From the NCBI GenBank assembly GCA_013298165.1, contig JAAFJU010000032.1:1-37696 (forward strand): a stretch of 37,696 bases of DNA, read 5' to 3'. This document shows positions 22,595 through 35,228 of the stretch, piece after piece. A model generated the notes under the pieces. The model was given only the letters and a program-made list of their open reading frames with translations. It was not told the origin of the DNA and did not search any database. The stretch's first letter is position 1, and every line of letters begins with the position of its first letter. A program made the position numbers and the translations under genes. The DNA is from Synechococcales cyanobacterium bin31.maxbin.ball.101. Its GTDB lineage: Bacteria > Cyanobacteriota > Cyanobacteriia > Leptolyngbyales > Leptolyngbyaceae.

Positions 22595-23566
22595 CTACTC
22601 CCAAATTGCCTCCACCAAATTAGTATTCTCCTGTTCCGCATGATCTAGACAAGCCCCGACCATTCTCGCGCCCATAAAATTGGCCCCCGTCAAATTCGCT
22701 TCCGTCAGGTTAGCGCCACTCAAGTCTGCGCCCCAAAGATTTGCGCCCCAAAGATCCGCCCCCCAAAGATCCGCCTCGCGCAAATCCACCCCCGTCAAAT
22801 CCATTTCACTCAAATTCACGCCCCGCAACGATCGCCCTGGGCCAATTTTGATCAAGCCCTCAACCTCTGGATTCTGTAAAGACTCCGGTAGGCAAGTGCG
22901 ATCGTCATACACCGCCCCCTGCCACTGCGTCCCCGCACAAAAACACCCCATCAGATCCGCACCCAACAGTAACGCCCGAACTAAAACAGCCCCGTCCAAA
23001 CGCCCCTCCCGCATCTGAAACTGATTTAACCGCGCCCCCGCCAAATTTGCCTCAACCCATCGCCCCCGATCGGCGATCGTCCCCCGCAAATTCGCCCGCC
23101 CCAAATTCACCCCAAACGCCTCCGTCTGCGTCAAATCCGCCCCCCCACAATCCGCATCCCGCAAATCCGCCCCCTCCAAAATTGCACTCCGCAACGCTTT
23201 TCCCGCCAAATTTGCACCCGGAGCCAGTTTATAAACATCCTCCGGCTCCTCGTGGGAAAACTGGGTCAGTTCATCCACGATCGCCCCCTGCCACAGCACG
23301 CCATCCACGATCGCCCCCATTAAATTAGCGCCGCGCAAATTCGCACCCCGCAGATCACAATCTCGCAAATCACAATTGCGCAAATCACACTGCCGCAGAT
23401 CACAATCCCGCAAACTCAAAGCACTGAAAACGCCACCTGCCAGATTTGCACCCCAAAAGCAAGCCCCATCCAAAGCCTGAATCCCACCTTCCGGCTTCCA
23501 TTGAAAAATTCCCGCAAAATCCCGATCGCCCTGAGCATAACGCCGCTGCAATTCCACGCCATCCAT
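22595..23566 (-). CDS. Pentapeptide repeat protein
   Basis: From ATG 23566 (MDGVELQRRYAQGDRDFAG) this is 323 residues; the frame to 23659 adds a hydrophobic leader unlike the family. Most of the protein is built from A(D/N)LxG-type pentapeptides, with C-containing variants such as LRDCDLRQCDLRNCD. It should fold as a right-handed quadrilateral beta-helix. Non-pentapeptide loops (about 100-130 and 230-260) break the helix into segments. The opening resembles many cyanobacterial pentapeptide-repeat proteins; roles are mostly unknown (some mimic DNA; some line thylakoids). Tandem CRP-like sites upstream suggest cAMP-dependent control. It is the only gene between the glycosylase and the amidohydrolase. 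Confidence 0.85.
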   Translation of the reverse strand: MDGVELQRRYAQGDRDFAGIFQWKPEGGIQALDGACFWGANLAGGVFSALSLRDCDLRQCDLRNCDLRDCDLRGANLRGANLMGAIVDGVLWQGAIVDELTQFSHEEPEDVYKLAPGANLAGKALRSAILEGADLRDADCGGADLTQTEAFGVNLGRANLRGTIADRGRWVEANLAGARLNQFQMREGRLDGAVLVRALLLGADLMGCFCAGTQWQGAVYDDRTCLPESLQNPEVEGLIKIGPGRSLRGVNLSEMDLTGVDLREADLWGADLWGANLWGADLSGANLTEANLTGANFMGARMVGACLDHAEQENTNLVEAIWE

Positions 23567-23723
23567 GATGCTGACCCCCAAAGCGAAGCAAGCCCATCTT
23601 GCGACATCCCAGCCCCCAACGCAACCCAAAAAAGGCAATAAAAAACCGACATCTCTCATAAAGAAAGCTGTCGGCCAGTCGTGTGTTCCCTGTTGATGAC
23701 TCGGCTAAAGTTGAGTCCCCTTT

Positions 23724-23729
23724 ATTATG
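23724..23729 (-). promoter_or_regulatory. Predicted -10 element of the pentapeptide-repeat gene
   Basis: On the minus strand CATAAT (one mismatch to TATAAT) would place the transcription start near 23717, about 150 bp before the start codon. Its importance is that the CRP-like palindrome centred at 23758.5 then lies at -41.5, the standard class II activator position. No -35 hexamer is needed for such promoters. Confidence 0.4.
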
Positions 23730-23750
23730 TGGAAACCCATGTAAAAGATA

Positions 23751-23766
23751 TGTGACCAAGATCACA
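23751..23766. promoter_or_regulatory. Perfect CRP-type palindrome TGTGA-N6-TCACA
   Basis: TGTGACCAAGATCACA matches the E. coli CRP and cyanobacterial SyCRP1-type consensus TGTGA-N6-TCACA in all ten conserved positions. It lies upstream of the pentapeptide-repeat gene, centred at -41.5 from the predicted start. Confidence 0.6.
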
Positions 23767-23773
23767 CAAGGAT

Positions 23774-23789
23774 AGTGATCCTAGTCACA
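23774..23789. promoter_or_regulatory. Second CRP-type palindrome AGTGA-N6-TCACA
   Basis: AGTGATCCTAGTCACA differs from TGTGA-N6-TCACA at one conserved position. Its centre is 23 bp upstream of the first site, about two helical turns, so two dimers could bind on nearly the same face, at -64.5 from the predicted start. Confidence 0.5.
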
Positions 23790-23962: not shown

Positions 23963-23967
23963 TCACA
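23956..23967. repeat. 12-bp perfect palindrome TGTGACGTCACA over the M20 stop codon
   Basis: The palindrome contains the TGA stop of the amidohydrolase (minus strand). The half-sites match the CRP core but the spacer is 2 bp instead of 6, so it is not a standard CRP site. Confidence 0.6.
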
Positions 23968-25201
23968 CTCCAGTTAGAATCTTTTCCACACATTGAATAA
24001 AAATCTCCATGCCTAAGGCTAGAGCAGTCTCGTCAATGTTGAATTGGGGATGGTGGTGGGCAAAGGTCAACCCGCGATCGGCATTGGCCGAGCCAAGGAA
24101 GAAGTAGCACCCTGGAACCTCCTGAAGAAAATAGGACATGTCTTCGCCGCCCATGGTTTGGCAGTGAGGGGTGACGAGGTTGTTGGGGAGGCTGGTTTCG
24201 GTGACGACGGTTTGGGCGATCTGGCGAACGAGGTCGGCGATCGTCTCATCGTTAATCACCGGAGGATAAAATTTCTCATAACTCAGGTCGTAGGTGGCTC
24301 CGTGCATTCCACAGACCCCGGCAATGAGTTGCTCTAGGCGAGGATGAAAATAGTCGGCGTATTTAGGGTTGAAGTAGCGGATGGTGCCGCTGAGGCGGGC
24401 GGTGTCGGCGATGACGTTACAGGCGGTACCTGCGTGAAATTCACCGACGGTGACGACGGCGGAGTCGATCGGGTCGATGTTGCGGGCGACGATCGTTTGC
24501 AAGGCGTTGACGATTTGGGTGGCGACGACGATGGAGTCTACGGTCTGTTGCGGGATGGCACCGTGGCCACCGCGTCCGAGGACGGTGCAGCGGAAGGTTT
24601 CAACCGCAGCCATAAGGGGACCCGATCGGACGCCGACGGTGCCGAGGGGGAGTTGCTGCCAGAGATGTAGGCCGATAATGGCGTCTACTTGCGGGTTTTG
24701 CAGGACGCCCGCTTCGATCATGGGTTTTGCGCCGCCGGGTCCTTCTTCGGCGGGTTGGAAGATGATTTTGACGGTGCCGTTGAAGGTGTGGCGGTGGCTG
24801 GCGAGGTAGCAGGCGGTGCCGAGGGCGATCGCGACATGACCGTCATGACCACAGGCGTGCATTTTACCGGGGTGTTGCGATCGGTAGTCCAGATCGTTTT
24901 GTTCTTGGATCGGCAGGGCGTCCATGTCGGCTCGAATGGCGAGGACTTTTCCGGGCCGATCGCGTTGCCGATCGCCTTGAATCGTTGCAACAATACCTGT
25001 TTTGGCAATATTGGCTTGGTAGTCGATGCCCCAGCTTTCGAGTTTCTCGGCGATGAACTGGGCGGTGAGGGTTTCTTCGAAGCCGAGTTCGGGGTATTGG
25101 TGGATTTGTCTACGCCAGGTGATGACTTGGGGGTGGAGCGATCGGAGATCGAGGCGGACGTTTTTGAGGTGGGGGGAGTTTAAGATGCTGGCGGCGACCA
25201 T
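23963..25201 (-). CDS. M20 family metallo-amidohydrolase (N-acyl amino acid hydrolase type)
   Basis: A 412-residue soluble zinc hydrolase of the M20D group, which removes acyl or indole-acetyl groups from amino acids (AmaA/HipO/IAA-conjugate hydrolase type). Metal-binding residues are seen in HACGHDGH (residues 115-122), FQPAEEGPGGA with the catalytic Glu near 152, the His of the central IIGLHLWQ, and the late CQTMGGEDMSYF. The dimerisation lid contains GRGGHGAIPQQ. The M start at 25201 gives the usual family length. The specific substrate cannot be told from sequence. Divergent from the small membrane protein gene, with a 143-bp shared upstream region. Confidence 0.92.
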   Translation of the reverse strand: MVAASILNSPHLKNVRLDLRSLHPQVITWRRQIHQYPELGFEETLTAQFIAEKLESWGIDYQANIAKTGIVATIQGDRQRDRPGKVLAIRADMDALPIQEQNDLDYRSQHPGKMHACGHDGHVAIALGTACYLASHRHTFNGTVKIIFQPAEEGPGGAKPMIEAGVLQNPQVDAIIGLHLWQQLPLGTVGVRSGPLMAAVETFRCTVLGRGGHGAIPQQTVDSIVVATQIVNALQTIVARNIDPIDSAVVTVGEFHAGTACNVIADTARLSGTIRYFNPKYADYFHPRLEQLIAGVCGMHGATYDLSYEKFYPPVINDETIADLVRQIAQTVVTETSLPNNLVTPHCQTMGGEDMSYFLQEVPGCYFFLGSANADRGLTFAHHHPQFNIDETALALGMEIFIQCVEKILTGV

Positions 25202-34761: not shown

Positions 34762-35228
34762 CTGTTCCATCCTAAAAAAACTCAAAAATTGCATCGAACA
34801 CATTACAAAAGTAGGCATAATGCCAATCCTAAAATGCCTAAAAAATAAGCTATTTATTATCTAGATCTGATGCTTCTTAACGTGCTCTAAAGAAGCAGAT
34901 CGATTGGGGAGATTGGCTGACACTAGCTCACTTAGATGCAATGCTTAGTTACCTATGTTAGGAAAAGTTTTTCTATATAACCCCTGTCATGAGGAATAGC
35001 TATTAGAGTATGTTTGCAAATAAATATTAAGAGGAATCTCTCAGTTAAATAGCGCCCCAGAGTATTAGTTCAGAAAACTAGATTGGCCGGGATGAGCGAT
35101 GATTACAGGATGAGGATAGATAATCTAATTTATTGTGAGCCAAAGATGAACTAATAAGTGAGCCAGATCACAGTGGCCACTTTGGGATAATGCGGGCTAG
35201 CCCCAAGCAATCTAAGCAATCTATCCCC
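34762..35228. other. 467-bp AT-rich intergenic region
   Basis: No open frame with coding character lies between the FkbM gene and the small lipoprotein gene, except the 5' extension of the latter (35190-35228), which is probably non-coding. The region is AT-rich with several TATATAA/TAATCT-type boxes and carries one CRP-like palindrome at 35157-35172. Confidence 0.5.
35157..35172. promoter_or_regulatory. CRP-type palindrome AGTGA-N6-TCACA upstream of the lipoprotein gene
   Basis: AGTGAGCCAGATCACA has nine of ten conserved positions of TGTGA-N6-TCACA. GATAAT at 35186-35191 is a plausible -10; the palindrome would then sit at about -33.5, a repressing rather than class II position. Same type as the 23.75 kb tandem. 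Confidence 0.45.

Follow-up and report, generated by a model that had tools for sequence, protein, structure and literature searches.

A putative cAMP-CRP-controlled small RNA with an almost unchanged core in the class Cyanobacteriia

Introduction

Cyanobacterial cAMP signaling, which serves motility, responses to light and dark, and carbon supply, is known through its protein targets. At CRP promoters, a site centered at -41.5 defines class II, and a site at about -62 is the class I position. NsiR1 of Nostoc is a case of tandemly repeated sRNA genes. NsiR1 is HetR-dependent and heterocyst-specific (PMC9045159). CyaR is a CRP-induced sRNA (PMC6166021); it and Spot 42 are enterobacterial sRNAs with transcription set by cAMP-CRP. 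NsiR4 and NsrR1 are cyanobacterial sRNAs under NtcA, a regulator of the CRP/FNR family (PMC6166021). NsrR1, a 112-nt RNA encoded between alr1709 and all1710, occurs only in heterocystous strains and their close relatives and has its NtcA site over the -10 box (PMC6166021). In cyanobacteria, the Yfr1 and Yfr2 families comprise short RNAs of deep conservation that contain an invariant unpaired motif, which is CACUCCUCACACC in Yfr1 (PMC4734099). A survey predicted the cyanobacterial SyCRP1/CRP regulons of protein genes, and its text mentions no small RNA or sRNA (PMC2633013).

The locus described here is compared with these systems as follows. Its likeness to CyaR and Spot 42 lies in the predicted regulation; the RNA comes from another phylum, and its two CRP sites are arranged in a fixed geometry. 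Like NsiR4 and NsrR1, it is a cyanobacterial RNA predicted to be under a CRP/FNR-family regulator, but in contrast to NsrR1 it is 78 nt long, has GTGA/TCAC sites upstream, and is more widely distributed. It shares a short length, deep conservation, and an invariant unpaired motif with the Yfr1 and Yfr2 families, but the motif is GAGUCAUYAAYAGGGAACACA. Tandem repetition is common to this RNA and NsiR1, but the former has CRP sites and is present in non-heterocystous lineages too. The types of binding site and of predicted regulator are those of the SyCRP1/CRP regulons. Identity with NsrR1 was rejected on length, distribution, and site position, and identity with Yfr1/Yfr2 or other Rfam families was rejected on the lack of an Rfam match and the different Yfr1 motif. 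Rfam 15 detected only a tRNA in the window and nothing relevant around the locus even at E 5. No description of the RNA was found in open papers, Nostoc RNA-seq supplements excepted; the RNA may be among the unnamed entries in the supplement of one Nostoc sRNA survey (PMC4734099). The RNA is most likely a CRP-controlled sRNA.

Results

Paired CRP-type sites precede a predicted transcription start

The window is the whole stretch of DNA that was analyzed, 37,696 nucleotides. An earlier note on this DNA had reported a perfect TGTGAN6TCACA and a one-mismatch copy, and both were found, at 23751-23766 (TGTGACCAAGATCACA) and 23774-23789 (AGTGATCCTAGTCACA), respectively. Matches with no more than one mismatch occur at only three places in the window, and none of 300 Markov-shuffled windows contained two such sites 20-26 bp apart, which agrees with the claim that the pair is unlikely to arise by chance. 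The minus-strand CATAAT at 23729-23724 is also in place. The start at 23717 was predicted from this -10 box and the edge of conservation, and for that start the site centers compute to -41.5 and -64.5 on the minus strand, the class II geometry that the note had proposed. A two-hexamer sigma-70 promoter was not found at the predicted start. By sequence the promoter is of the class II type, with TGTGA-N6-TCACA at -41.5 and no good -35 box. The whole 5.39-Mb genome contains four perfect sites, one of which is 23751-23766, compared to one match for the control pattern. The third place in the window is a further CRP-like site with one mismatch at 35157-35172 (AGTGAGCCAGATCACA). A sigma-70-like TTGACA-18-AATACT is located upstream of the CRP sites at 23919-23890 on the minus strand, and the chance expectation for such an element is 0.7. 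The features of the locus are collected in Table 1.

Table 1. Coordinates of the features at the small RNA locus in the window.
Feature	Position	Strand	Basis or remark
Distal CRP-type palindrome, minus-strand TGTGACTAGGATCACT	23774-23789	-	Center -64.5
Proximal CRP-type palindrome, minus-strand TGTGATCTTGGTCACA	23751-23766	-	Center -41.5, replaces -35 box
-10 element CATAAT	23724-23729	-	Sequence; CATACT/CATAAT-like element at equal distance in RNA copies
78-nt small RNA gene (predicted)	23640-23717	-	Covariance-model match 23640-23717; fold; conservation; covariation; start inferred, end at U-run
5' stem-loop GACTC-AACTTTAGCC-GAGTC	23698-23717	-	Fold, covariation
Ultraconserved core AGCCGAGTCATCAACAGGGAACACA, presumed pairing (seed) region	23682-23706	-	Conservation in copies
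Intrinsic terminator, GC-rich stem then U-run	23640-23675	-	Sequence, fold, covariation
Downstream pentapeptide-repeat gene, start MDGVELQRRY at about 23566	22595-23566	-	Pfam PF00805; outside conserved unit
Upstream M20-family peptidase/amidohydrolase gene	23963-25201	-	Pfam PF01546; similar ORFs upstream of RNA in L006, L009

The sequence predicts a short, structured, non-coding transcript

The minus strand downstream of the predicted start reads GACTCAACTTTAGCCGAGTCATCAACAGGGAACACACGACTGGCCGACAGCTTTCTTTATGAGAGATGTCGGTTTTTT. In the predicted fold (-24.2 kcal/mol, z -3.1), a hairpin at the 5' end is followed by the unpaired AUCAACAGGGAACACACGACU and then by a strong intrinsic terminator; none of 200 shuffles was equally stable. 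The conserved core lacks ATG, GTG, and TTG, and for this reason the RNA is read as non-coding. The features of an intrinsically terminated sRNA are all found in the sequence: a promoter of its own, a length between 50 and 250 nt, a Rho-independent terminator, and no conserved ORF. The sequence GGGAACACA is invariant in 115 non-redundant copies, and only two C/T positions vary much elsewhere in the core; these copies were gathered by a core pattern (at most 5 mismatches of 24), which biases the conservation measure upward. Covariation was measured in 84 aligned matches and is seen in both helices. Thirteen of the 15 pairs changed on both sides, a value that none of 500 shuffles reached, and the measure is biased upward since the alignment was fitted to the structure of the model. 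All seven pairs of the terminator stem have changes on both sides. Copies of the Nostoc type have a weaker 5' stem, with 84% of the cells paired.

The paired sites are conserved with the RNA

The palindrome score in the 115 non-redundant copies peaks at two places only, -63.5 and -41.5. A distal GTGA-N6-TCAC scoring at least 8/10 is found at -62.5 to -65.5 in 98 of the 115 copies, compared to 0-2 in the control windows. The logo of the distal site is TGTGAtnaagATCACa, and each position of GTGA/TCAC is 95-100% conserved. The proximal site is weaker (tTGATCnnGATCGCt); it scores at least 6/10 in 68 of the 115 copies and is degenerate in most. The perfect site of the window is the proximal one. 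In copies of the G139 type only one site is seen, near -42.5 to -43.5. A third CRP-like palindrome lies about 22 bp upstream of the conserved two in L141, L147, L150, and L153.

Distribution of the RNA

With 171 bases of the locus as the query, 43 of 58 genomes (own genome included) matched at E<1e-8, and most of these matches span the unit from the -10 box to the terminator. The core is present in 39 of the 42 family genomes. Named matches to the exact 23-nt core come from Leptolyngbya, Phormidesmis, Stenomitos, Myxacorys, Alkalinema, Oculatella, Elainella, and others. A covariance model, R1, was built from 37 copies, and it matched at E<1e-6 in 48 of the 386 genomes of a phylum-wide draw. 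The R1-positive genomes include the large family f28, which appears to be Nostoc-like and whose copies read AACTGAACTCTAGCCGAGTCATTAATAGGGAACACAC. They also include G139 (2,593,857 bp), whose gene for the TePixJ photoreceptor domain (PDB 3vv4 and 4glq) makes it probably Thermosynechococcus BP-1 or a near twin. The predicted small RNA is found across the class Cyanobacteriia with its core almost unchanged. In several genomes the whole unit is repeated head to tail, in 2-5 copies that mostly lie 160-185 bp apart, and some genomes have the RNA at more than one locus. A second, diverged copy with a different 5' hairpin loop was seen at another locus of the same genomes (L166, L167, L168, and L169). 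Two near-complete genomes of the window's genus (G001 and G002) kept crp and lack the RNA, a natural loss which suggests that the RNA is dispensable. Weak model matches at G338/L154 and G157/L155 were rejected on the absence of the core. Three weak matches (E 0.002-0.06) occur in crp-bearing genomes that otherwise lack the RNA.

A SyCRP1-type regulator accompanies the RNA

The Crp-type HTH model has seven matching stretches in the own genome, some lying within other winged-helix regulators. L032 (230 aa) contains the PF00027 cNMP-binding and PF13545 Crp HTH domains, a RETVTR recognition helix (RETVGR in E. coli CRP), and the PRS motif of the cAMP pocket; the E. coli CRP fragment in the alignment was checked against PDB. 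These domains together with the RE..R motif place L032 among receptors of the SyCRP1/AnCrpA type. L037, L033, and L035 do not have the RE..R recognition motif. Nine class III cyclase domains are encoded in the own genome. A crp orthologue was called at a threshold of at least 59% identity, which 107 genomes of the phylum draw pass. It is present in 47 of the 48 RNA-bearing genomes compared to 60 of the 338 others (Fisher p 3e-29, a value that ignores kinship). These 60 genomes of the draw bear crp without an RNA match. The sole RNA-bearing exception is G153 (L136 and L182), whose crp is only a fragment with a stop; the RNA and its sites are retained there all the same.

Discussion

The minus strand of 23717-23640 very probably encodes a cAMP-CRP-activated, 78-nt non-coding sRNA that acts by base pairing through its unpaired core. 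A rise in cAMP would lead the CRP orthologue L032 to occupy both sites. CRP at the proximal site (class II) and at the distal site (class I-like) would recruit RNA polymerase, and the intrinsic terminator would end transcription. The almost invariant unpaired AUCAACAGGGAACACACGACU would then pair in trans with target mRNAs and alter their translation or stability. Activation rather than repression is predicted from the positions of the sites, given that -41.5 is a class II position and about -62 a class I position.

The earlier note had assigned cAMP control to the pentapeptide-repeat gene; it named the lack of a CRP homologue in the genome and the lack of conservation of the palindromes in close relatives as findings that would refute the idea. 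A SyCRP1-type CRP is present (L032), the paired sites are kept in relatives, and control by cAMP through the CRP-type sites is probable; the target, however, is predicted to be the 78-nt RNA with its own terminator. The pentapeptide gene was rejected as the target of the promoter on account of the terminator at 23675-23640, which the note had overlooked, and the variable downstream genes, which are a TrhO/rhodanese-like gene in L006 and L009 and other neighbors elsewhere. The gene is read here as a mere neighbor, to which a small amount of read-through would contribute at most. As the locus illustrates, what looks like a site 'upstream of a gene' may be part of an intervening RNA gene that is not annotated. 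An unlikely alternative keeps the promoter in the service of the pentapeptide gene and makes the hairpin a conditional attenuator or leaky terminator, with CRP control exerted through read-through. The gene is on the same strand and starts about 73 bp past the end of the terminator (a longer possible start at 23659 falls in the terminator loop), and a sigma-70-like promoter was not found in the gap between the two. The unit is nevertheless preserved where the downstream genes are unrelated and where it is repeated head to tail, and its terminator is strong, in a fold that contains no competing antiterminator.

The identity of the regulator was considered in the same way. NtcA binds GTN10AC and activates mostly from -41.5 (PMC6166021), GTGA-N6-TCAC also fits this loose rule, and other CRP-family genes are present in the own genome. 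Binding of NtcA or another CRP/FNR protein instead of the cAMP receptor is still quite improbable: the distal site conserves GTGA/TCAC and not GTA/TAC, the distribution of the RNA tracks the SyCRP1-type gene, and the RE..R recognition motif is lacking from L037, L033, and L035. The tandem copies in several genomes and the presence of more than one locus in some would suit a small mobile or repetitive element with an incidental promoter and terminator. That explanation is very improbable in view of the low copy number (1-5), the M20 neighbor common to L006, L009, and the window, the compensatory helix changes, and the fixed promoter geometry. Matches with two mismatches are at the chance level in the window, as would be expected if the two palindromes were functionless coincidences beside an unrelated gene, but dozens of diverged copies have this pair at these positions and none of the 300 shuffled windows has one, which leaves this explanation a negligible probability.

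The targets of the predicted CRP-controlled sRNA were approached in G139, the one complete genome scanned. The G139 core is complementary to the pixJ 5' UTR from -60 to -34 (-28.8 kcal/mol, z -3.6) and to the start of an apparent pilT gene (z -3.6). The overall energies in this genome were no better than those of shuffled cores, and pixJ and pilT are for that reason leads only, from one genome. Pairing with pixJ and pilT would be in line with what cAMP, SyCRP1, and PixJ do in phototaxis (PMC7690835). The chances are about even that a core sRNA of the class Cyanobacteriia carries the cAMP-CRP signal post-transcriptionally, possibly with phototaxis and type IV pili as its destination, and that the CRP-promoter-RNA-terminator unit as a whole multiplies through tandem duplication. 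If so, the cAMP pathway would gain an RNA arm, governed by the same CRP sites in genomes ranging from Thermosynechococcus-like to Nostoc-like. A search of the 42 family genomes for 15-nt complementarity to the core (one mismatch) gave only scattered single matches beyond the RNA genes. The strongest z-scores in the G139 scan belong to the repeated leader of a transposase-like gene. This leader, CUGUGUCUCCCUUUACGAAGAUGACUUGA, precedes a transposase-like gene family at several places on the G139 chromosome (e.g., 241585, 1447751, and 2320881) and is partly complementary to the core.
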